Shown: positions 9,689-30,137 of the stretch, one piece after another | How positions within the stretch are numbered: the first letter of the stretch is position 1 | Layout of the letters: each line of letters starts with the position of its first letter | Source: Candidatus Aminicenantota bacterium | Lineage (GTDB): Bacteria > Acidobacteriota > Aminicenantia > JAMOAD01 | Length of the DNA stretch: 36,542 nucleotides | NCBI GenBank assembly: GCA_027067555.1 | Contig: JAMOVU010000016.1 | Coordinates: 1 to 36,542, forward strand | Direction of reading: 5' to 3' | The notes under the pieces: generated by a model | What the model saw: only the letters and a program-made list of their open reading frames with translations | Database searches by the model: none | What the model was told of the DNA's origin: nothing | Position numbers and translations under genes: made by a program

Positions 9689-10042
9689 ATGGCTGGTAAT
9701 GACTCTTTTTATGAGTATTATTCTTTGATTTGTAGGACCATTACAACTCCATCAAGGCTTAAGATATTGGAAGCAATAGGTTTGAAAAAGATGAATGTCT
9801 CCGAAATATATGAAGCTACCGGACTTTCGAGGAGTAATCTTTCAAATCATTTGGGAGCTCTTTATAAAATAGGGATATTAGGTAGAGAGAAAGTTGGCAA
9901 CTATATTTACTATTACCTTGCCCAGCCTGAAATTTTAAAGGTAATGGAAATGATGATGGACATAGTGCGAAAAATTTCAAAGGAAAGACATAGCTTTGTA
10001 AATAATGGTGAAAATTGTGAGAGTGTAAATGGAAAAGATTAA
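9689..10042 (+). CDS. ArsR-family winged-helix regulator
   Basis: TTPSRLKILEAIGLKKMNVSEIYEATGLSRSNLSNHLGALYKIGILGREKVGNYIYYYL; Cys at 15 and 110. Confidence 0.88.
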   Translation: MAGNDSFYEYYSLICRTITTPSRLKILEAIGLKKMNVSEIYEATGLSRSNLSNHLGALYKIGILGREKVGNYIYYYLAQPEILKVMEMMMDIVRKISKERHSFVNNGENCESVNGKD

Positions 10043-10565
10043 TTTTTACCTGATTTTTGCGAATCTTTTAGATTATCCTGATGAGAAAAAATTATCTCTC
10101 TTTGAAAGATTCGAAAACATTGTTGGTCTACACTATACTGGTGAAATCCCTCCTTTGGAGAATTTAGAAATAGAATATACAAAGCTTTTTGTTAATGCTC
10201 ATCCGTATCTTCCTGCTCCTCCCTTTGCCTCAGTTTATTTAAATTCTGAAAACCTTTATGATGAAATTGAATCATTTTACCAGAGTGTCGGATATGGAAT
10301 CGAAACAAGGGAATTTCCTCCAGATTATCTGATTTATGAGTTAGTGTTTCTTTCAAATTTATTTAATGATGAAAATTACAAAGCTGAAAGAAAATTTTTG
10401 ATATCACATTTTTTACCATGGTTTGAAAAATTTGTTAAAAAAGTTAAGGAAAATGATGAGACCGGATTTTACTCTTTTATTTGCGAAAAAATTAATATCT
10501 TTTTAAATAATAGATTAAAGGAGTTAAAAGATGGGGAAACCAATCTCCAGAAGAGAGTTTTTTAA
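10029..10565 (+). CDS. TorD/DmsD-like molybdoenzyme chaperone
   Basis: IEYTKLFVNAHPYLPAPPFASVYLNSENLYDE.., adjacent to and overlapping molybdoenzyme gene. Confidence 0.8.
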   Translation: MEKINFYLIFANLLDYPDEKKLSLFERFENIVGLHYTGEIPPLENLEIEYTKLFVNAHPYLPAPPFASVYLNSENLYDEIESFYQSVGYGIETREFPPDYLIYELVFLSNLFNDENYKAERKFLISHFLPWFEKFVKKVKENDETGFYSFICEKINIFLNNRLKELKDGETNLQKRVF

Positions 10566-12846
10566 AAGATCGCTCCTCGGTGCAGGAGCAATAGGTGTTA
10601 CGGATTACTCTTATGTGTTCAAAAAGTTTCCTCCGGGAAAGGCAGGCAGGGAAGATGTTGAGCTGATTCCTTCTATTTGTGAAATGTGCTTCTGGAAGTG
10701 TGGGATTATTGGGAAGGTTAAAAATGGAAGGCTTTTAAAGATTGAAGGAAATCCCAGGAACCCTCACAATGGTGAAAAGATTTGTGCAAGAGGGAACTCT
10801 GGTATAATGCAGCTTTATGATCCTGACAGACTTAAGTATCCATTGTTAAATGTTGGGAAGAGAGGGGAGCCCAAGTGGAAAAGGATTTCATGGAAAGAGG
10901 CTCTTAATAGAATTGCTGAAAGGATGCTTGAGTATAAAAAAAAGTATGGGGCAAGAAGTATAGCCAACTTGTCTCACGGCTCATCCTCTATTCCGATGAG
11001 AAAACTTTTGAAAAATTTTGGTACTGACAGAATAGCTCATGCCTCTTTTGATCAGTGTAGAGGAAACAGAGATGTTGCTTTTGAGCTTACCTTTGGTATG
11101 GGAGCTGGTTCTCCCGAAAGAGTGGATTTGATAAATGCAAAAGCCATTCTCTTAATAGGCTCTCACATAGGAGAAAATGTTCATACTTCCCTGGTAAAAG
11201 AGTTTATAGAGGCAGTTGAAGGAAGAAAGGCGAAGCTCGTTACGGTTGATCCGAGATTTTCGATGATTGCAGGTAAATCGGATTACTGGCTTCCTATCAA
11301 ACCGGGAACTGATACAGCTTTGATTTTGACTCTTATAAATTATATTATTCAGCACAATCTTTATGATAGGGAGTTTGTTAATAACTATACTTATGGTTTT
11401 GATAAATTAAAGGAAGAGGTGAAAAACTATACTCCTGAATGGGCTGAAAAGATTACAGAGATAAAGAAAGAAATAATTATTGAAATAGCGGAACTTTTTG
11501 GAAGGAGTAAACCTGCTGTTACAATATTCCCTGGAAGACAATCAACATGGTATGGAAATGATACTCAAAGAGTAAGAGCTCTTGCAATTCTTGCCTCTAT
11601 TTTAGGGGCAGTAGGTAGAAGGGGAGGTTACTTTTTCCCGACTAAGATTAAGTTGAAAGGATGTCCATGTCCCAATAAAATTGAAGGGGAAGATTTTCTT
11701 TGTGATACAAGTGAATATCCTTTTATGGAGACTACTACCGAATGCATTAGAGAAGCTACTTTGAATGATGAAGTTAAGATGTGGATTGTCTATGGTTCCA
11801 ATATAATACACAATACACCGAATCCACAGAAAACAATAAAAGCCATTAATAAACTCGATTTTATGGTTGTTGTTGATATTAAACCAACAGAACCATCTCT
11901 TTATGCTGATATTGTTCTTCCGGAAGCCACTTATCTTGAAAGATATGATATTCCCTTTATGGTTGCTGATTCAAGGACTCCATTTATTCAGATAAGAAGA
12001 CCTGTGGTTCAACCACTTTACGAATCAAAAGATCCATTTTATATAGTAAGTGAACTTTCAAAGAGGCTTGGGCTTAAAGATTGTTTCCCATGTGAAACCA
12101 TGGAGGATTATCTTAATCTTGCTCTTTCTTCAATAGGGACAAACTTGAGAAAATTAGAGAAGGAAGGAGGGGTTTACAGGTATGAAGGAAAACCTTTTCT
12201 TGATGATTTTGGAGGAAATTACAGATTTCCCACACCAACAGGGAAGATTGAGCTTTATTCAACTAAGTTAAGCTTGAATGATAAAGACCCGATTCCCAAA
12301 TACGAACCTGTGGAAGATCCTCCGAAAGGATGGGCAAGGTTGAGTTACGGAAGATCGCCTGTTCATACTTTTTCAAGAACTGAAAATAACAAATGGCTTC
12401 ATGCTCTCAATCCTGAGAATGACCTCTGGATTAATGAAGAAGCTGCAAAAAGTATGGGATTAAAAGATGGAGAGTATGTAAGATTAAAAAATCAGGATGG
12501 AGTTGTTTCTGATCCTGTTAAACTTAAAGTTACTCCGGGGATAAGACCTGATATGGTTCATACATATCATGGTTTTGGTTCTCAATCCCCATTCTTAAGG
12601 TTGGCATATAAAAAGGGAATGTTTGAAAATGCTCTTATCACAAAAATTGTTCTTGATCCGATAATGGGAGGAATGGCAAAAAGAATCAATTTTGTGAAAA
12701 TAATCAAAGATGGGAAAGAGATTGATTTCCCTGTAATAAAACAAAAACCTTCCGGGTTTAAGAAAAAACCGGAAAAGGAGATAAAGATTAAATTAACCGC
12801 TCCTCTGCCCGTAGGCGGGCATGAAGAGGAAGAAGGAGGTTGCTAA
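10531..12846 (+). CDS. Tat-exported molybdopterin oxidoreductase, polysulfide/thiosulfate reductase chain A-like
   Basis: SRREFFKRSLLGAGAIG Tat motif; CEMCFWKCGI..EKICARG 4Fe-4S motif; ASFDQCRGNRD putative Cys Mo ligand; molydopterin dinucleotide-binding C-terminus GRSPVHTFSRTENNKWLHALNPENDLWINEEAAKSMGLKDGEYVRL. Confidence 0.85.
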   Translation: MGKPISRREFFKRSLLGAGAIGVTDYSYVFKKFPPGKAGREDVELIPSICEMCFWKCGIIGKVKNGRLLKIEGNPRNPHNGEKICARGNSGIMQLYDPDRLKYPLLNVGKRGEPKWKRISWKEALNRIAERMLEYKKKYGARSIANLSHGSSSIPMRKLLKNFGTDRIAHASFDQCRGNRDVAFELTFGMGAGSPERVDLINAKAILLIGSHIGENVHTSLVKEFIEAVEGRKAKLVTVDPRFSMIAGKSDYWLPIKPGTDTALILTLINYIIQHNLYDREFVNNYTYGFDKLKEEVKNYTPEWAEKITEIKKEIIIEIAELFGRSKPAVTIFPGRQSTWYGNDTQRVRALAILASILGAVGRRGGYFFPTKIKLKGCPCPNKIEGEDFLCDTSEYPFMETTTECIREATLNDEVKMWIVYGSNIIHNTPNPQKTIKAINKLDFMVVVDIKPTEPSLYADIVLPEATYLERYDIPFMVADSRTPFIQIRRPVVQPLYESKDPFYIVSELSKRLGLKDCFPCETMEDYLNLALSSIGTNLRKLEKEGGVYRYEGKPFLDDFGGNYRFPTPTGKIELYSTKLSLNDKDPIPKYEPVEDPPKGWARLSYGRSPVHTFSRTENNKWLHALNPENDLWINEEAAKSMGLKDGEYVRLKNQDGVVSDPVKLKVTPGIRPDMVHTYHGFGSQSPFLRLAYKKGMFENALITKIVLDPIMGGMAKRINFVKIIKDGKEIDFPVIKQKPSGFKKKPEKEIKIKLTAPLPVGGHEEEEGGC
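12801..12830 (+). repeat. GC-rich hairpin at 3' end of molybdoenzyme gene, just upstream of next SD
   Basis: TCCTC-TGCCCG-TAGG-CGGGCA-tgaa-GAGGA: 11 bp with a 4-nt bulge. Confidence 0.55.
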
Positions 12847-13580
12847 TGGCTAAGTATGGAATGGTCATTGACCTTGATCGCTGTGTTGGTTGTCAGGCTT
12901 GTATGGTTGCCTGTAAAGCTCAGTGGCAAACTCCTGAAGACTATTTCAGAACATGGGTTAAACATATAGGTCCTGTTCAAATTAAAGATGAGATGGTATT
13001 TACCTCTTATGTCGGTCAGTGTAATCATTGTGATAACCCCCCGTGTGTTCCTGCTTGCCCAACTCAAGCAACTTTTAAAGATACTGAAACCGGAATTGTT
13101 CTTGTGGATTATGATCTTTGTATCGGGTGCGGATATTGTGTCGAAGCATGTCCATATGGGGCAAGATTTATAAATCCTGTTACTAAGAAAGTTGAAAAGT
13201 GTGATTTTTGTTATCCGAGATTGGGAGAAGAGGATCCTGCTTGTGTAAAAACATGTATTGTTTCTGCGAAAGTTTTTGGGGATCTTGAAAACAAAGACTC
13301 TTATATCTCCAAGAAAATAAGTGAAGGTAATACTTATATAATTGCCACTAAAGAGGTTAATCCTGGTCCTAATGTTTATTATAAAGGTAGAAGAAGCAAA
13401 ATTGAGGCTATTATAAAGAATTATCCACCTGAGAAAAAGGATACACTTCCTGCTAAAATCTGGTCAAATGTTTTAAGACCTTTTGTAATTTTAGGCGCAG
13501 GAGCAACCTTTATCGGTAGTCTTGTTGCCTTTCTGTTTCAAATAAATCAAGGAGAAAAGGAGGGTGAAGATGAGGAATGA
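12846..13580 (+). CDS. 4Fe-4S ferredoxin-type electron-transfer subunit with C-terminal TM helix (PsrB/FdnH-like)
   Basis: CVGCQACMVAC, CNHCDNPPCVPAC, CIGCGYCVEAC, CDFCYPRLGEEDPACVKTC; C-terminal FVILGAGATFIGSLVAFLF TM; start refined to ATG after GGAGG. Confidence 0.92.
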   Translation: MAKYGMVIDLDRCVGCQACMVACKAQWQTPEDYFRTWVKHIGPVQIKDEMVFTSYVGQCNHCDNPPCVPACPTQATFKDTETGIVLVDYDLCIGCGYCVEACPYGARFINPVTKKVEKCDFCYPRLGEEDPACVKTCIVSAKVFGDLENKDSYISKKISEGNTYIIATKEVNPGPNVYYKGRRSKIEAIIKNYPPEKKDTLPAKIWSNVLRPFVILGAGATFIGSLVAFLFQINQGEKEGEDEE

Positions 13581-14826
13581 GATTTTAGAGAAATACCTCC
13601 CTTTGACACCTGAAGAGAAGGAAGAGTTAAAGAAAAAAAGGATAAAAAAGCATCATGTTGCCACAATTTTTCTTCACTGGTTTAATATGTTGGTATGGCT
13701 TACAGAGCTTATTACAGGTGCTGCTTTAATAATTTCATCCAACTATATTTTTGTACCGAGGTTTTTTACCAAACTTGTAAGTGATATTTACGGAACGAGG
13801 GGTAATATAATAAGAACACATATTTTTGTAGGTGTCGTTTGGGCCATCGTTTTGATTTTGTATGCTCTTTTCGGATGGAGAAGATATTTAAAACCAACTT
13901 TAAAGGAGATTTTTGGGATAACCAAAGATGACATAGGATGGTTAGTATCAAAATTTGAAGAGGTCGCCCTTGGTAAAAAAGTACATTATCCTCCTCAGGA
14001 TTCTTATAATGGAGGACAAAAACTTTTTGCCATAGTTGTAGCTCTTATGGTGCCAGTGATAATCATTACTGGTTTTATAATGGCATTTCACCTTTTAACT
14101 CCTGCTTTAATCAGATGGGCAATAATTATTCATTTTATAGCAGTTGGACTTGTTGTAATGGGATTATCTGTTCATATATATATGGCACTTCTCTATCCTC
14201 CTGAGCAAGAAGGTCTTTTTGGTATGATTCATGGCTATATTTCCGAATATTTTGCTTACCATCACCATTATAAATTTTGGCGTAAAAAGAAAAAGGGGCT
14301 TGATAAACCTGCAGAACTTCCACCAAAAAAAGATCTTTCTCCCATAAAAGCAGGTATCTTTTTGGGTGTTGTACTTTTCTTCTCCTTTTATTTAACCGGT
14401 TTTGGGCTTGGCTCTTCCGGTTTTGTGCAGAGAACACTTGTGGCTATCTTTGGTGCATTTGCTCCGGAGAGTGTAAAAAATCACCCCTATATGGGGCATT
14501 ATTGGGGTGTTTATCCTCTGTGGAATTTCTTAGTGTTTATGGGGTTTGGAGTTATTATTGGAACTCTTTTTGCAATGTTTTTGTCAAATCATAAATTTAG
14601 ATTCAGAATTGAAAAGGGAGATAAAATATCAGATATTCAAAGACTTATTTATGCTGTAATTGGGGGAATTATCGTGGGATTTGCCACAAGAATTGCCGGA
14701 GGATGTACTTCCTCTATGGCTCTTTCAGGTGGCTCTGTATTTTCTCCCGGAGGGTGGCTTTTTATGATTTTCCTCTTTGTTGGAGGATACCTGGGAGCTT
14801 TCTTTTTTAGGAGGTTATGGAAATGA
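13564..14826 (+). CDS. Fusion: cytochrome b (FdnI/Ni-hydrogenase type) + YeeE/YedE (PmpA/TsuA-like) half-transporter
   Basis: N-terminal KHHVATIFLHWFNMLVWLTELITG..RTHIFVGVVW..IHFIAVGLVVMGLSVHIYMALL; C-terminal GGIIVGFATRIAGGCTSSMALSGGSVFSPGGWLFMIFLFVGGYLGAF. Confidence 0.82.
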   Translation: MKMRNEILEKYLPLTPEEKEELKKKRIKKHHVATIFLHWFNMLVWLTELITGAALIISSNYIFVPRFFTKLVSDIYGTRGNIIRTHIFVGVVWAIVLILYALFGWRRYLKPTLKEIFGITKDDIGWLVSKFEEVALGKKVHYPPQDSYNGGQKLFAIVVALMVPVIIITGFIMAFHLLTPALIRWAIIIHFIAVGLVVMGLSVHIYMALLYPPEQEGLFGMIHGYISEYFAYHHHYKFWRKKKKGLDKPAELPPKKDLSPIKAGIFLGVVLFFSFYLTGFGLGSSGFVQRTLVAIFGAFAPESVKNHPYMGHYWGVYPLWNFLVFMGFGVIIGTLFAMFLSNHKFRFRIEKGDKISDIQRLIYAVIGGIIVGFATRIAGGCTSSMALSGGSVFSPGGWLFMIFLFVGGYLGAFFFRRLWK

Positions 14827-15407
14827 TAGGTCCTCTTTATAAAGTTTTAGGTTGGAGTCATGGAACTTTGCTTGTACTTGCTCTTATTGTTGGGTTTTTC
14901 TTTGGTTACGCTCTTTATAGATCAGGTTTTTACAGTGCAAAAAAGTTAGCAGGTGTTTTTTATCTTTATGATTTTGCTGTATACAAGGTTATATTTGTTG
15001 GAATCATTGCTGCAGCCCTGCTTTTGTGGCTTTTTTCAGGGATAGGGTTATTGAAATTTGAGCTTTTAAGCTTTCATCCATCATACCTTATTTCGGCAGC
15101 AATAGGAGGTTTTATTTTTGGTATAGGATTTTCAATAGGTGGATTTTGCCCCGGAACTTCTCTTGTAAGTGCTGTTACCGGAAGTTTTGATGCAATGGCT
15201 TTTTTTGTGGGGGTTTATCTCGGAATTGCAATATGGGATTTGGGTTATCCTTTTTTATTTAAAGGTTTAAATCATATTGGAAAGATAGATGCCAAAACAT
15301 TGATGGAGGCCTGGGGGGTACCTTATATTGTTCTGATTATAGTTGCTTTGATTATTGCTGTTGTAACATTCCCTGTTGTAAGTAAAATTGAAGATAAAAA
15401 CAAATAA
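14817..15407 (+). CDS. YeeE/YedE family (PmpB-like) sulfur-compound transporter half
   Basis: SAAIGGFIFGIGFSIGGFCPGTSLVSAVTGSFDAMAFFVGVYLGIAIWD. Confidence 0.85.
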   Translation: MEMIGPLYKVLGWSHGTLLVLALIVGFFFGYALYRSGFYSAKKLAGVFYLYDFAVYKVIFVGIIAAALLLWLFSGIGLLKFELLSFHPSYLISAAIGGFIFGIGFSIGGFCPGTSLVSAVTGSFDAMAFFVGVYLGIAIWDLGYPFLFKGLNHIGKIDAKTLMEAWGVPYIVLIIVALIIAVVTFPVVSKIEDKNK

Positions 15408-15422
15408 TAAAGGAGGGATAAA

Positions 15423-15848
15423 ATGAAAAAGAGACTTATTATTTTTTCAATTGTAATTTTGATGGTTTTTTCTGTATATGCGCAGATTAAACCAGCGAGG
15501 TATTTTGTTGAAAGAGCTATTGCAAAAATTAATATGATAACTCCTCAGGAAGCAAAAGCCATGATGGACAAAGGGGGAGTTATTGTAATTGATGTTAGAA
15601 CAGAGAAAGAGTATAAGAGAGGAACAATACCTGGAGCTATGCACATTCCGCGAGGATTACTTGAATTTAAGGTGTATAAGGTTATTACTGATCCTAATCA
15701 AAAAATCATAATCTTTTGCAAATCAGGGGGAAGAGGAGCCCTTGCTACTTTAAGATTAAAAGAAATGGGGTACAAAAATGTATATAATATAAAAGGAGGT
15801 TTTAAAGGCTGGAAGAAAGCAGGTTTACCTGTTGGAAGAGGGAAATAA
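15423..15848 (+). CDS. Periplasmic single-domain rhodanese
   Basis: Signal peptide; MITPQEAKAMMDKGGVIVIDVRTEKEYKRGTIPGAMHIPRG..KIIIFCKSGGRGALATLRLKEMGYKNVYNIKGGFKGWKKAGLP; active-site CKSGGR. Confidence 0.92.
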   Translation: MKKRLIIFSIVILMVFSVYAQIKPARYFVERAIAKINMITPQEAKAMMDKGGVIVIDVRTEKEYKRGTIPGAMHIPRGLLEFKVYKVITDPNQKIIIFCKSGGRGALATLRLKEMGYKNVYNIKGGFKGWKKAGLPVGRGK

Positions 15849-18160: not shown

Positions 18161-19219
18161 GTGAGTTTGTTTAAAAAAAAGAATTTAGTTGGGCTTGATA
18201 TTGGAAGCTTTGCTGTAAAGGTTGTGGAATTAATACCCAAAAAGAAAGGTGGAAGAGAGATCTACGAGCTGGCCGGACTTGGATATGAACCGCTACCTCC
18301 TCAGACAATTGTTGAAGGGACTATAATGGATTATACTTCCTTGGCTGAGACAATAAACAAGGTTTTTTCTAATGCTCATATTAAGAACAAGAATGTTGCA
18401 ATAAGCTTATCGGGAACAGCTGTTATTACCAGAAAACTGATTCTTCAGAAAATGTCTGAAGAGGAATTGGAAGAATCTATTGAGTTTGAAGCAAAGGGAC
18501 AGTTGACATCTCCTATTACGGATGTTTATCTTGATTATGATGTTGTTAATGAGGATGAGGAGAGGATGGAAGTTGTACTTGTTGCTATTAAGAGGGAAAA
18601 GGTTGATGAATATAGAGGCGCTGTGCTTCAAGCTGGTAAAAATGTTGAAGTCGTTGATACTGACCATTTTGCACTTGAAAATGCTATTGAATACAATTAC
18701 TCTATACCTCCTGATACTACTTATGCTATTCTTAATGTTGGAGCATCTCTAACAAATATAGTAATTGTAAGAAATGGGGCTCCTATTTTAACAAGAGATG
18801 TGAATCTTGGAGGTGCGAATCTTACGGATGTTATTCAAAAGGAATTTCATCTTGATTTTGAAAAGGCTGAGAAAATAAAAAAAGGACAGACAGTTTCCGG
18901 AATTTCGGCTGAAGTAGTAGAACCAAGTTTAAGAGTCCTTTTTAATGATTTAAAGATGGAGACATTAAAAACCTTTGACTATTATCAAGCTATTTCTGTC
19001 AAGGATTCCATTTCTAAAATTTATCTCAGCGGGGGAAGTGCAAAGATGAAAAATTTATCCTCGTTTTTGGAAGAAGAATTGAGTCTTCCCGTGGAATTGG
19101 TTAATCCATTTCAGAATATTTACTACAATGAGAAAAAGTTTAACCCCGATTATCTTAATGAAATGGAAAGTACCTTTGTTGTTGCTGTAGGTTTGGCAAT
19201 GAGAAAAATGGGAGAATAA
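18161..19219 (+). CDS. pilM: Type IV pilus assembly protein PilM
   Basis: LVGLDIGSFAVKVVEL..VAISLSGTAVITRKL..IYLSGGSAKMKNLSSFLEEEL; GTG start with SD GGAG. Confidence 0.93.
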   Translation: MSLFKKKNLVGLDIGSFAVKVVELIPKKKGGREIYELAGLGYEPLPPQTIVEGTIMDYTSLAETINKVFSNAHIKNKNVAISLSGTAVITRKLILQKMSEEELEESIEFEAKGQLTSPITDVYLDYDVVNEDEERMEVVLVAIKREKVDEYRGAVLQAGKNVEVVDTDHFALENAIEYNYSIPPDTTYAILNVGASLTNIVIVRNGAPILTRDVNLGGANLTDVIQKEFHLDFEKAEKIKKGQTVSGISAEVVEPSLRVLFNDLKMETLKTFDYYQAISVKDSISKIYLSGGSAKMKNLSSFLEEELSLPVELVNPFQNIYYNEKKFNPDYLNEMESTFVVAVGLAMRKMGE

Positions 19220-19221
19220 AG

Positions 19222-19806
19222 ATGATAAAGATAAATGTACTAAAATCAGAAAAAAGAGAGAAAGGTAAAAAGAAAAAAGCTTTTGTTACTGGAGAAGCTG
19301 ACAAAAGATTGACAAATATGTTTGTTGGGGTGATGATTGTGACTGTGCTTATTATTGCAGCTATGTGGTATACCCAGAGCAGTAAAATGGATCAACTGAG
19401 ACAGGATATAGATACTCTTACAGCAAAAAAGAATAGTCCTGAGTTGAAAAATGTTGAAAAAAGGTTAAAGGAGTTAGAGAGGAAGCAGCAAGTCATAAAT
19501 AAAAAAATTGAGATTATTGATAGGTTGAAGAAGTATAGAACCGTACCTGTTGAGATAATAGATCTTTTATCTAAGAATATTCCTGATCAAGTTTGGTTTA
19601 CTTTTATGAGTTACAAAGAGGGATTTGTTAAGATTAATGGTTATGCTTTTTCAAATGAATTAGTAGCACGGTTTATCACAAATCTTGAAAAAACTGATAA
19701 ATTTTCTAATTTTAATTTGATAAATACAAAAAAGCTAAGAAAGGGTGGTGTTGAATTTTATAGCTTTAGCATGAATTTTAAATACAAGATGCCTGAGGTG
19801 AAATAA
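19222..19806 (+). CDS. pilN: PilN-like T4P inner-membrane protein
   Basis: Position after pilM; single TM + coiled coil + PilN domain (LLSKNIPDQVWFTFMSYKEGFVKINGYAFSNELVARFITNLE). Confidence 0.88.
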   Translation: MIKINVLKSEKREKGKKKKAFVTGEADKRLTNMFVGVMIVTVLIIAAMWYTQSSKMDQLRQDIDTLTAKKNSPELKNVEKRLKELERKQQVINKKIEIIDRLKKYRTVPVEIIDLLSKNIPDQVWFTFMSYKEGFVKINGYAFSNELVARFITNLEKTDKFSNFNLINTKKLRKGGVEFYSFSMNFKYKMPEVK

Positions 19807-20486
19807 TGGATATAAAAAGTTTGCCGTGGTATGGCCAGTTACTTGTTTTTGTTTTGTTGGGGTTATTGTTTATAGGAATTTATTATAAAATGTATTATAG
19901 CCCGGGGCAAGAAGAAGTGCTTTCTTTGGAAAAGCAGAAAGCACAGTTAGAGTCAGAGATAAAAACTCTTCAGAGAAAGAAGAGGGAAATTAATAAAATT
20001 CAAAGAGACATAGAGTTAAAAAAGGCTAATCTTGAAAAGCTTCAGGAAATTTTACCTAACAGAAAGGAAATCGCTAAAATTTTAACCATAATACAGGGGA
20101 GAGCAAAAGATTGTAATCTTTCGATTCTTAGTTTCACACCTCAAGGGGAAATTCCAAAGAGTATAATTATTAAGCAGAGGGTAACTGTAAGACAGGGGAA
20201 TGTTGAAAGGACTCAATATAGAAATGTAGCAGTAAAAAATGTTTTTGCGGAATGGCCTATAAGTCTTACATTAAGAGGTGGTTATCATGACCTGGCTGTC
20301 TTTTTTGTACATTTGTGTAGTTTGTCCAGAATCTTCACAATCTCAAATTTTGAAATTAGAGCTCTTCCCAAACAAACGCGAAGCGAAACAATCTCTGCTC
20401 GAGTCTTAGCCAAGACTTATATATTTATTGAAAAGGAGAATAAAGGGCCCAAGGGAAAGAAAGTAGTTGTGGTGAGAAGGAGGTAG
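19806..20486 (+). CDS. pilO: PilO-like T4P inner-membrane protein
   Basis: TM + coiled coil + LPNRKEIAKILTIIQGRAKDCNLSILSFTPQGEIP..YHDLAVFFVHLCSLSRIFTISNFEI. Confidence 0.9.
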   Translation: MDIKSLPWYGQLLVFVLLGLLFIGIYYKMYYSPGQEEVLSLEKQKAQLESEIKTLQRKKREINKIQRDIELKKANLEKLQEILPNRKEIAKILTIIQGRAKDCNLSILSFTPQGEIPKSIIIKQRVTVRQGNVERTQYRNVAVKNVFAEWPISLTLRGGYHDLAVFFVHLCSLSRIFTISNFEIRALPKQTRSETISARVLAKTYIFIEKENKGPKGKKVVVVRRR

Positions 20487-20488
20487 AA

Positions 20489-20983
20489 ATGAAGGGAAGT
20501 AAAATTGTATCTATATTTATTATAATGTTTGTAATTATTAGTATGAGTGGAATTTCAGCTGTGCAAAAGACGGGAAAGAAATCTCCTCTTAAAAAACCTG
20601 TGAATAATTCATTTAAAAACATTTCTGATTCTAATTTGCTTTATAATTATGATCCGCAAAACAGAAGAGACCCTTTTTATGATCTTTTAAAGGGATTAAA
20701 AGCAGCTAAAAAGAAAGTACAGAAAGGTGTTAAACCCTTTTATATTACTGAAATTCAATTAACAGGGATAATTGGGTTTAAAGGACAGTATTCAGCTATG
20801 GTGGTGACTCCAGAAGGTGAAGCTTATTCTATAAAGAAGGGAGATAAGTTGATGGATGGAGTCGTTGAGGAAGTTGGGGCAGATTATGTAAAGTTTATTC
20901 AGGTTTTAAAATCGCCCATAATGCTGAAAAAAACGAGAGAAATTATTAAAAGAATAAATATAGATGAAAATTCGAAGGAATAA
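20489..20983 (+). CDS. pilP: PilP-like T4P assembly protein
   Basis: NRRDPFYDL..EIQLTGIIGFKGQYSAMVVTPEGEAYSIKKGDKLMDGVVEEV. Confidence 0.88.
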   Translation: MKGSKIVSIFIIMFVIISMSGISAVQKTGKKSPLKKPVNNSFKNISDSNLLYNYDPQNRRDPFYDLLKGLKAAKKKVQKGVKPFYITEIQLTGIIGFKGQYSAMVVTPEGEAYSIKKGDKLMDGVVEEVGADYVKFIQVLKSPIMLKKTREIIKRINIDENSKE

Positions 20984-20999
20984 TATTATGGAGGAGAAG

Positions 21000-23189
21000 A
21001 TGAAAAAGCTTAAAGTGTTTACTATAGTTTTTGTGCTTATCTTCATCGGGAGCTTTTTGATGGCCTACCAGAATAAAATCGTGAAGACTTATTTTAAAAA
21101 TGATGCAAAGAGCTTGAAAGTAGTTTTTGTGGGGACCAATGAATTTAGTGAAATACCTGATTTCTTTGAAAATGAAGGTGATACAAGAGAAATTGTTCTA
21201 AGGTTTAAAGGAGTTTCTGCAGATAACAATAGGAAAATTAAGGGTAGAGGAATTGTTAAAGGTATTTCTTTTGAAGAAAAGGGTGGAGAGCTTTACTCCC
21301 ATTTAAAAATGGAGGCGTCCGCTCCTTTTAGAATTTACAAAAAGGGTACAAATGTTATCGTTGAAATTTATAAAACAGTAGAGCCTCCGGTTATTAAAGG
21401 TGAAACAAATGATATCCTTTTGAATGAACTTGCAATTGAAAATGTAGGAAATGATTTGAAGATACATTTAAAATTTAATGGGGATATTCCTACTTACGAT
21501 GTTTTTTATGTTGATAATCCCAGAAGATTGGTTTTTGACCTTTATGACACCAGGAATAGAGTAAGAAAAAGTATTTTTTCTGTTCAATCCTCTGATATTT
21601 CAAGGGTAAGAGTGGGACAAAATAAAGTAGTCCCTCAGAAAGTTACAAGGCTTGTTTTTGATTTAAAAAAGGATGTTATTAATTATAGTGTTGATGAAAG
21701 TGGCGAAGAGTTGATAATAAATGTAAAGAGTAATGCGGTAAAGATTAAAAATGATAATTTTATAAAAGATAAGAAAATTAACAATGTGGTAAAAGAAGAT
21801 AAGAAGATTATTGCTAAAGCTGTTGAAAAGGTAAATGAGAGAAAGATAAGGAAGGTGGAGAATAAGAAAATAAAAGTGGTCCCTATCGAAAAGGCAAATA
21901 CAAAGAAATTTGAGGCAAAAACCATTCATAGCGAGGAGAGCATTTACAAAGGAGCTTTAATTTCACTCAGATTAAAAGATGCTGATATAAGAGATGTCTT
22001 AAGGGAAATAGCTGTTAGGGCTGGCTTAAATTTAATTATTGACCCAGGAGTTTCCGGTAAAGTTACCTGTGAATTAATTAAAATTCCGTGGGACCAGGCT
22101 CTTGATCTAATATTAAAGTCAAACAAACTTGGGAAAGTGCTGGAAGGGAATGTTTTGAGAGTTGGTAAAACTGAGGTTTTAGCAAGAGAGGAAGAAGAGA
22201 ACAGAAAACTTATGGAAGCAAAAAAAATGTCAGGCCCGCTTAAAGTACTTACAAGAACATTATCCTATGCAAGAGTAAAAGCGGTAGAGCCACTGTTAAA
22301 AGCTCAATTAAGTAAGAGAGGTAAAATTTTAATTGATCAGAGAACGAATACTGTTATTGTGTCAGATGTTGTTCCCAAAGTAAAAGTTATTGACAAAATG
22401 ATTGATATATTGGATACTCCAAACCTTCAGGTCAATATAAAAGCGAGAATTGTTGAAACAACATCTAATTATGCAAGGAATCTTGGAATTCAGTGGGGGT
22501 TTAAGGGTATAAGTAATTATTATTATGGAAACCAGACATCACTAAAATTCCCCAATAATATTACAGTAGCAGGCAATAGCGTTGCTTCTCAGCAAGGAAT
22601 ATACGGACCGTTGGGGGGCTATGCAGTAAATTTACCGGCTCCTGCATATTCAAGTGGAATAGGTCTTACATTGGGTAATGTACTTGATACTTTTAGATTG
22701 GATGCTGCTCTTACGGCTCTGGAGAATAAAGGTAAAGCTAAAATCCTCTCTATGCCAGAAGTTACAACACAAGATAACACCCGGGCAGATATTATTCAAG
22801 GTAAGATGATTCCTGTGCAAACAGTAGCATATAATACAGTGTCTACAAGATATGTGAATGCAGCTCTTGAACTTCATGTAACTCCCCATATAACAGCTGA
22901 AGGTACGATAATTATGACTATTGAAATAAGAAATGATAATGCTGACTTTTCAAATCTTGTAAATGGTATTCCTCCAATAATTACACAATCGGCAAAAACT
23001 TCGGTTCTTGTTAAAGATGGGGGTACGACCGTTATTGGTGGAATTTATAAAGTTGAAGATAGTATAACTAAAAATACAGTCCCAGGGTTGGGTAAAATTC
23101 CTATAATAGGATTTTTATTTAGAGGAACTCAAAGAGTTGGAACGAATAGAGAGTTATTAATATTTATTACTCCAAGAATTGTTAGATAG
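21000..23189 (+). CDS. pilQ: PilQ secretin (AMIN domains + STN + secretin)
   Basis: ISLRLKDADIRDVLREIAVRAGLNLIIDPGVSGKVTCELIKIPWDQALDLIL; C-terminal secretin VKDGGTTVIGGIYKVEDSITKNTVPGLGKIPIIGFLFRGTQRVGTNRELLIFITPRIV; start refined to ATG after GGAGGAG. Confidence 0.95.
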   Translation: MKKLKVFTIVFVLIFIGSFLMAYQNKIVKTYFKNDAKSLKVVFVGTNEFSEIPDFFENEGDTREIVLRFKGVSADNNRKIKGRGIVKGISFEEKGGELYSHLKMEASAPFRIYKKGTNVIVEIYKTVEPPVIKGETNDILLNELAIENVGNDLKIHLKFNGDIPTYDVFYVDNPRRLVFDLYDTRNRVRKSIFSVQSSDISRVRVGQNKVVPQKVTRLVFDLKKDVINYSVDESGEELIINVKSNAVKIKNDNFIKDKKINNVVKEDKKIIAKAVEKVNERKIRKVENKKIKVVPIEKANTKKFEAKTIHSEESIYKGALISLRLKDADIRDVLREIAVRAGLNLIIDPGVSGKVTCELIKIPWDQALDLILKSNKLGKVLEGNVLRVGKTEVLAREEEENRKLMEAKKMSGPLKVLTRTLSYARVKAVEPLLKAQLSKRGKILIDQRTNTVIVSDVVPKVKVIDKMIDILDTPNLQVNIKARIVETTSNYARNLGIQWGFKGISNYYYGNQTSLKFPNNITVAGNSVASQQGIYGPLGGYAVNLPAPAYSSGIGLTLGNVLDTFRLDAALTALENKGKAKILSMPEVTTQDNTRADIIQGKMIPVQTVAYNTVSTRYVNAALELHVTPHITAEGTIIMTIEIRNDNADFSNLVNGIPPIITQSAKTSVLVKDGGTTVIGGIYKVEDSITKNTVPGLGKIPIIGFLFRGTQRVGTNRELLIFITPRIVR

Positions 23190-28643: not shown

Positions 28644-30137
28644 CTATTGAACTATTATAAAATTTGGTTTAATACTTTCAACGCCATTTTTGCCAACCGC
28701 TGTCACAGTATAAGCAGCTTTTTTTCTGATTACCCCTTTTGGAATTATTATGTATTTTGGTTGATTTACCCTTATTACTCCAATCATTTTCTCGCTTACT
28801 TCATCACCATCATAACTTCTTTCATAAATTCTATACTCTTTAATATTAGCGTCTCCTGTGGGGCTTGCTTTCCAGGTTACAACATCATAGTATAAGTTAT
28901 ATAGAAGAAAATTCTTAACAGTTCTATTTACACTTATTCCCACAGGTGGTTTGGGTGCATTTGGTAATTCGGATGGATAGATCTGAAGAATTGCATTTTC
29001 CCATTCTATGTTGTTAAAACCGTGAATATTATTAGGTTTGTAGTATCCATCATAGGATCCGCTCCATCCCATATTAATATGAAAGTATTCATCTATTCCG
29101 TCGATTTTATATCCGTCAACTACGACAGAGTGTCCGGAATCTTCGGTATATATTGCTAAATTTACAGGTCTTGGTATTGGTGCGTCTAATTCCTTTTTTA
29201 CAACAATAAACCATTTATGCAGGTTTCTGTAGTTATTATACTCGTCGTATTTAATATTTGTAGAATATTTAAAAAACATTGGCATTCTTTTTACCATATA
29301 GGAAGGGTAGGCGCCGGAACCATCCGGTGTATAATCCATGTCCACTGCAACGCCTACATCATATATAAGTTTTGCAACAGCATCTATTTGTACTTTTGGA
29401 CTACCTGCGTTTATGCTGTTTGGCATCTTATTCCATTCATAAGTATGATTAAAATTGGCAGAAACTCTTACATTATGGGTGTCTGTCACATAAGAATGTG
29501 AGCCCTGTCCTTTCGGAGGGTAATTCCAGTATTTCATTATTTGAGAAAAAGAAGTTGCAACACATCCAGCATAACTTCTACGCCCTCCAATAACAGGTGC
29601 ATATTTATTGTATGGGTTATTTTGATTCCATTTAGTCTTTACAACAGGTCCTTTAATTACTACTGTTAGTTTGGAGCTCATCAATTTAGGATCTGTATTT
29701 AAAAGTTTTTTCCACTTTGCTCTGTTTTCCGAAGCTATTTGATTTAGTCTTTCTTCTGAAAAGCTTTCTGCCTTTCTTATCATTTTATAGTATATTTTTT
29801 TTATTAGAGGTAATAGATTACTGTTTTCTATTGGACTTGAATATGAATATAATTTTACGGGTGGTAAGAATTTATAGGCGGAAAGTAATATATGACCATA
29901 AGGGTAGAGGTTAAAGTTATATCCTATTATTATACCCTTTTCTTTTATTTCTTCCACGGAAACAATCTGCCACCTTACTCCCTGAATTCCAATTTTTTCT
30001 AAAGAGCCTATTTGCTGGTTTAACCAGACCTTTGCTGCATTTTTTGCTTGGGTTAAATCTACTTTTTTTAAAGTGGCTGAAAACGAGAAACTTAATAGCA
30101 CAATTAAAAAACCTATCAAGATTAGTTTTTTCCTCAT
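28644..30137 (-). CDS. Secreted C10 (streptopain-like) cysteine peptidase with propeptide and C-terminal Fn3-like domain
   Basis: GGRRSYAGCVATSFSQIMKYWNYPPKGQGSH (Cys); DSGHSVVVDGYKIDGIDEYFHINMGWSGSYDGYY (His); signal peptide. Confidence 0.88.
   Translation of the reverse strand: MRKKLILIGFLIVLLSFSFSATLKKVDLTQAKNAAKVWLNQQIGSLEKIGIQGVRWQIVSVEEIKEKGIIIGYNFNLYPYGHILLSAYKFLPPVKLYSYSSPIENSNLLPLIKKIYYKMIRKAESFSEERLNQIASENRAKWKKLLNTDPKLMSSKLTVVIKGPVVKTKWNQNNPYNKYAPVIGGRRSYAGCVATSFSQIMKYWNYPPKGQGSHSYVTDTHNVRVSANFNHTYEWNKMPNSINAGSPKVQIDAVAKLIYDVGVAVDMDYTPDGSGAYPSYMVKRMPMFFKYSTNIKYDEYNNYRNLHKWFIVVKKELDAPIPRPVNLAIYTEDSGHSVVVDGYKIDGIDEYFHINMGWSGSYDGYYKPNNIHGFNNIEWENAILQIYPSELPNAPKPPVGISVNRTVKNFLLYNLYYDVVTWKASPTGDANIKEYRIYERSYDGDEVSEKMIGVIRVNQPKYIIIPKGVIRKKAAYTVTAVGKNGVESIKPNFIIVQ

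Follow-up and report, generated by a model that had tools for sequence, protein, structure and literature searches.

A single gene of an uncultured Aminicenantes bacterium (Acidobacteriota) was found to join a diheme cytochrome b domain to one half of a split YeeE-family sulfur transporter. The gene lies on a 36,542-nucleotide stretch of DNA (hereafter, the window), in an operon predicted to encode a molybdoenzyme complex of the Psr/Phs type, a clade whose substrate is not readable from sequence. With a probability of roughly 0.6, the encoded system is a quinol:sulfane-sulfur reductase of Psr/Phs type, facing the periplasm, with a cytochrome b anchor tethered to a split YeeE sulfur importer. 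Judged from these sequences, the enzyme and the transporter of one uncultured Aminicenantes family seem to be made as a single unit.

The fusion gene and its operon

The operon encodes, in this order, an ArsR-type regulator, TorD, PsrA/PhsA, an FeS protein, the fusion, a YeeE N-half, and a rhodanese with a predicted export signal:

9689 to 10042 (+): ArsR/SmtB-type regulator, encoded at the head of the operon (PF01022, E 1.4e-10; HTH_metalloreg over cut-off; L017 and L018 keep it upstream, L019 has it fused to TorD)
10029 to 10565 (+): TorD/DmsD-type chaperone for the molybdoenzyme (PF02613, E 1.7e-16)
10531 to 12846 (+): PsrA/PhsA-type catalytic molybdoenzyme with twin-arginine leader SRREFFK (2vpw_A, 619 bits; PhsA NCBIfam, 483 bits)
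12840 to 13580 (+): FeS electron-transfer subunit with a hydrophobic, FdnH-like C-terminal tail (2vpw_B, 148 bits; 1kqf_B, FdnH, aligned over 4-245 including the tail)
13570 to 14826 (+): cytochrome b–YeeE C-half fusion, 418 aa from the likely start ATG 13570 (PF01292 and PF04143; kept in four genomes; 8 hydrophobic segments)
13570 to 14283 (+): within the fusion, FdnI/PhsC-type diheme cytochrome b domain with 4 TM segments and haem ligands H38, H86, H190, and H204 (match to 1kqf_C; four His invariant)
14284 to 14337 (+): basic linker around RKKKKGLDKPAELPPKKD, predicted to be cytoplasmic (loop charge pattern)
14338 to 14823 (+): YeeE C-terminal half with 4 TM segments, Cys381 corresponding to TsuA Cys293 (profile match to TsuA 8k1r/6leo, E 4.5e-17; Cys in 26/26)
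14817 to 15407 (+): YeeE N-terminal half with 5 predicted TM segments, Cys111 corresponding to TsuA Cys91, start overlapping the fusion stop (PF04143 profile positions 1-147, E 1.5e-13; 6leo alignment; Cys in 26/26)
15423 to 15848 (+): rhodanese with an N-terminal signal-like sequence and Cys99 in a CKSGGRG loop (PF00581, E 4.8e-26; sequence)

Positions 13564 to 14826 form one uninterrupted open frame. The original prediction had placed a single protein of 420 aa in this region; the single frame stood, but 418 aa is the likelier length, because GTG 13564 sits within the ribosome-binding region (AAGGAGGGTGAAGATG) and the relative in L019 likewise starts at the later ATG. All motifs cited in that prediction were recovered: FLHWFN (H38), RTHIFVG (H86), IHF (H190), VHIYM (H204), and GGCTSS (C381) in the fusion, and GGFCPGTS (C111) in its partner. 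Pfam matches were obtained to PF01292 at residues 30-224 (E 1.7e-20) and to PF04143 (Sulf_transp, YeeE/YedE) at residues 250-409, covering profile positions 169-309 (E 4.8e-17). Approximate domain limits are residues 30-240 for the cytochrome b domain and 259-420 for the YeeE half.

The presence of both domains in one frame, intact in four metagenome-assembled genomes (G000, G001, G002, and G004) with protein identities of 82-91%, confirmed the predicted fusion and led to rejection of an assembly or frame artefact. These four are among the five genomes of the family, the fifth of which is 85% complete. Over the whole frame, dN was about 0.07-0.13 against a large or saturated dS, which indicated purifying selection on the fusion, including its YeeE part. 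The same operon order was found in L017, where the contig stops inside the YeeE N-half, in L018, and in L019. In the latter locus, from the most distant relative, ArsR and TorD form one 291-aa ORF (L019:6106-6981; HTH_20 just under cut-off plus Nitrate_red_del).

No other match spanned both domains in about 520 other Acidobacteriota genomes, drawn from overlapping sets of 142 genomes of the class, 297 of the phylum, and 149 of another Acidobacteriota class; absence elsewhere applies to these sampled Acidobacteriota, other phyla having been scanned for close relatives only. A plasmid search returned FdnI and YeeE matches separately only, and no description of the architecture was found in the searchable literature, outside which most subscription papers fall. 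Within this coverage, the proposal that the architecture is new was upheld.

Hydropathy analysis of the fusion gave 4+4 TM segments with basic loops alternating regularly to the inside, a pattern that puts the linker on the cytoplasmic side. The C terminus of FdnI is cytoplasmic, so a join between cytochrome b and YeeE at this point is topologically permitted.

The window PsrA matched the Thermus Psr/thiosulfate reductase structure 2vpw_A with 619 bits across positions 6-727. The Cys of its DQCRGN motif aligned with a Cys of 2vpw, and a CxxCxxxC FeS motif accompanied the Tat leader. Its best NCBIfam model was PhsA, but the protein was not filed as PhsA itself because 483 bits falls below the cut-off of 694. 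No other PF00384 protein was found in this 98%-complete genome. Both the FeS and the membrane quinol subunits are encoded in the operon, the membrane anchor being of the FdnI type, not NrfD. No TusA/YeeD gene occurred among the operon genes; the TusA of the same genome lies on another contig (C65). No NIR_SIR sulfite reductase match was found in the genome, which therefore probably needs reduced sulfur from outside.

Elsewhere in the window, a run of ORFs 3' of the operon (18161-23189) resembles a type IV pilus assembly cluster, its first ORF being PilM-like, and a Peptidase C10 family protein is encoded at 28644-30137 on the minus strand (E 1.5e-56).

Haem ligands, cysteines, and complementary YeeE halves

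The N-terminal part of the fusion matched FdnI-type formate dehydrogenase gamma subunits, including 1kqf_C. Its four haem-ligand histidines lie in a 4-TM domain, as in FdnI/PhsC-type diheme cytochromes b, and were invariant across all fused and unfused relatives examined. The predicted topology places H38 and H204 on the cytoplasmic side and H86 and H190 on the periplasmic side, the sidedness of the two haems of FdnI as well. For the cytochrome part, Foldseek with a low-confidence model of the fusion ranked FdnI first (probability 1.0, although E was 0.067); the YeeE part gave no match. The earlier description of the cytochrome b domain as an electron carrier needed revision: rather than a free carrier, it would be the anchor of the operon's Psr/Phs-type molybdoenzyme on the quinol side.

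The C-terminal part of the fusion and the product of 14817-15407 cover PF04143 profile positions 169-309 and 1-147, respectively, and are therefore complementary halves of one YeeE domain. This agreed with the prediction that the partner half is the next gene, although gene order is reversed, the C-half preceding the N-half. Of the essential TsuA cysteines, C91 mapped to partner C111 in the 6leo alignment and C293 to fusion C381 in the profile alignment, both equivalences being counted from printed alignments. Each was invariant in 26/26 homologues, and the glycines of the half-domain were invariant too. A degenerate YeeE half, the outcome that would have overturned the original prediction, was rejected on this conservation. 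The pair has no counterpart of the third TsuA cysteine, C22, the position being taken by Tyr39 of the partner in the 6leo alignment. The 5 hydrophobic segments of the partner bring the YeeE pair to 9 predicted TM segments in total, in agreement with the nine TM helices of TsuA (PMC11582611). Adjacent genes with complementary halves and one Cys each at the C91/C293 positions are the features of split YeeE proteins such as PmpAB and YedE1E2.

AlphaFold2 single-chain models were weak (mean pLDDT 54 for the fusion, from a thin 5-row alignment, and 43 for the partner, from 3 rows). The suggestion that the fusion forces a 1:1 stoichiometry stands as far as the cytochrome and the YeeE C-half are concerned; it would extend to the whole channel only if the two halves pair.

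Unfused relatives and possible origin of the operon

FdnI-type cytochromes 40-47% identical to the window domain follow PsrA-PsrB in L068-L072, and no YeeE occurs in that operon. YeeE C-half and N-half genes were located downstream of PsrA-PsrB in about 17 Acidobacteriota loci (L047, L049, L050, L051, L068, L073, L074, L075, L079, L081, and L091-L097). NrfD was detected between PsrB and YeeE by Pfam in L049, L051, L074, L075, and L079 and by BLAST in L091-L097; a gap of NrfD-fitting size is present in L047, L050, L068, and L073, but not in L081. In many PsrA-PsrB-NrfD-YeeE(C)-YeeE(N) loci, a rhodanese gene or domain follows. No description of this Acidobacteriota operon was found in the searchable literature.

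In 4 loci, cytochrome b genes also immediately precede the YeeE pair. YeeE halves follow an octahaem-type (tetrathionate-reductase-like) cytochrome c plus cytochrome b in L077 and L080 (L080:4905-8871), multihaem c-cytochrome b proteins in L048 and L052, and metallo-beta-lactamase/rhodanese proteins in L054 and L057, with L055 and L059 similar in appearance. In L080, L077, L048, and L052, the YeeE N-half carries a fused rhodanese domain, in L080 without an obvious catalytic Cys. Candidates for further fusions at other YeeE C-halves (open frames of 400-577 codons) were rejected as high-GC read-through, with NrfD in another frame. The YeeE pair is part of a module found, in unfused form, alongside respiratory reductases throughout Acidobacteriota.

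The window FeS subunit scored about 220-250 bits against cytochrome b-type operons versus 110-147 against the NrfD type, and the window PsrA was 46-47% identical to the cytochrome b type versus about 42-44% to the NrfD type. A PsrA tree, built with no outgroup, resolved three clean groups (NrfD-type, cytochrome b-type, and the window family) but did not settle which two are sisters. Kinship of the window operon to the cytochrome b type is indicated by PsrA identity and by the FdnH-like tail of the FeS subunit. The fusion operon looks like a hybrid, in which a cytochrome b-type reductase core would have been combined with the YeeE-rhodanese module of an NrfD-type operon. In genomes G361 and G512 (loci L068 and L092), NrfD-YeeE and cytochrome b operons lie about 5-17 kb apart, and such closeness of the two Psr operon types is a possible route to a hybrid operon. 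Anchor and first YeeE half look to have been joined after the hybrid formed, a scenario inferred from these comparisons and not rooted by the PsrA tree.

Proposed function and relation to known systems

In the proposed mechanism, the FdnI/PhsC-like cytochrome b would oxidise quinol, and its two haems, followed by the FeS subunit, would carry electrons to the molybdenum site of PsrA. This site would cleave, in the periplasm, a sulfane-sulfur compound such as thiosulfate or polysulfide that the exported rhodanese probably hands over. The C-terminal half of the fusion and the product of the next gene would together restore a YeeE of 9 helices, with Cys381 and Cys111 along the path. This pair would draw on the same periplasmic pool and bring sulfane sulfur, as thiosulfate or zero-valent sulfur, into the cytoplasm. 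Import, as direction of transport, is supported by the precedents of YedE1E2 (PMC10812762) and SoxT1A (PMC11582611). Tethering reductase to transporter would presumably be of benefit. Counting against this reading are the missing C22 equivalent, the lack of TusA/YeeD in the operon, and the FdnI-type PsrAB-cytochrome b operons elsewhere, which have no YeeE in the operon, so that the reductase does not require it. A tighter coupling, with quinol electrons or local charge movement driving or gating sulfane sulfur through the tethered pore, is unlikely; if true, an electron-driven or gated YeeE would make sulfur respiration and sulfur import one coupled event.

The ArsR-type gene at the head of the operon raises the alternative that the tethered YeeE is mainly a sensor, passing sulfane sulfur inward to the repressor so that reductase expression tracks substrate supply. 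SoxT1B acts in this way for SoxR (PMC11582611), and ArsR proteins 53-55% identical to that of the window adjoin the unfused YeeE clusters L048 and L052. However, most PsrABC-YeeE loci were found without a matching ArsR nearby, the ArsR relatives have just one N-terminal Cys in common (Cys15, 4/5), and sensing needs no fixed link to a reductase. We regard this role as rather improbable. Several molybdoenzymes of the Psr/Phs superfamily can run in either direction, and here sulfide or another reduced sulfur compound could instead be the electron donor and the quinone pool the acceptor, with YeeE dealing with what is produced; since the closest solved and named relatives are thiosulfate and polysulfide reductases, we consider this quite unlikely.

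A respiratory selenite reductase (SrrABC-like), with the YeeE pair moving selenium, is very unlikely. Rhodanese-like neighbours are regarded as typical of SrrA, a member of the Psr/Phs clade (PMC8528874), and the window operon has a rhodanese. Some YedE proteins do transport selenium, and seleno_YedE was the weak best NCBIfam match of the partner, but matches to selenium YedE models were far under cut-off, no SelD above cut-off was found in the genome, and split-YeeE neighbours in Acidobacteriota include persulfide-dioxygenase-like and tetrathionate-reductase-like genes. Least probable of all is a YeeE half that serves merely as extra membrane anchor or as an incidental fusion without transport: the fusion is confined to one family and cytochrome b alone suffices in related operons, but the invariant key Cys and glycines, the intact, conserved partner gene, and purifying selection on the YeeE part speak against it.

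As a natural arrangement, the covalent joint hints strongly that YeeE-family sulfur transporters cooperate with respiratory sulfur reductases, and this hint is reinforced by the widespread unfused PsrABC-YeeE operon of Acidobacteriota, often with rhodanese. That broader association may be a more useful result than the fusion. It offers a handle on how sulfur-respiring bacteria apportion sulfane sulfur to respiration and to the cytoplasm, and can serve as a marker of sulfur-respiration metabolism in uncultured lineages.

Among known systems, PhsABC/PsrABC of the CISM family likewise combine an exported PsrA/PhsA-like catalytic subunit, an FeS subunit, a membrane quinol subunit, and a TorD-type chaperone, and PhsC is an FdnI-like cytochrome b anchor, as in the window operon. 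In contrast to these systems, the window anchor carries a C-terminal YeeE half, and the operon adds a second YeeE half and a rhodanese. Formate dehydrogenase-N shares an FdnI-like diheme cytochrome b and an FeS subunit with a C-terminal TM helix (FdnHI), whereas the catalytic subunit of the window is Psr/Phs-like, not a formate dehydrogenase. The YTD cluster of sulfur disproportionators, defined by yedE with tusA, dsrE, and chp, also has a YedE-type transporter among sulfur-metabolism genes, but no TusA, DsrE, or Chp occurred among the window operon genes. The thiosulfate transporter TsuA/YeeE (with TsuB/YeeD) belongs to the same family as the window pair (9 predicted TM in total); unlike TsuA, the window YeeE is split, in reversed gene order, without a C22 equivalent, and with no TsuB/TusA in the operon. 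The split YeeE transporters PmpA/PmpB and YedE1/YedE2 are likewise encoded by two adjacent half genes, and each half has a single conserved Cys at the position of TsuA C91 or C293. PmpAB has been proposed to be a heterodimer with these cysteines (PMC11582611), and split YedE1E2 imports zero-valent sulfur, requires both halves and both cysteines, and showed import, not export (PMC10812762). The window halves are longer (about 160 and 196 aa versus about 130), the C-half is fused to cytochrome b, and the pair accompanies a respiratory reductase, whereas PmpA/PmpB and YedE1/YedE2 accompany persulfide dioxygenase.
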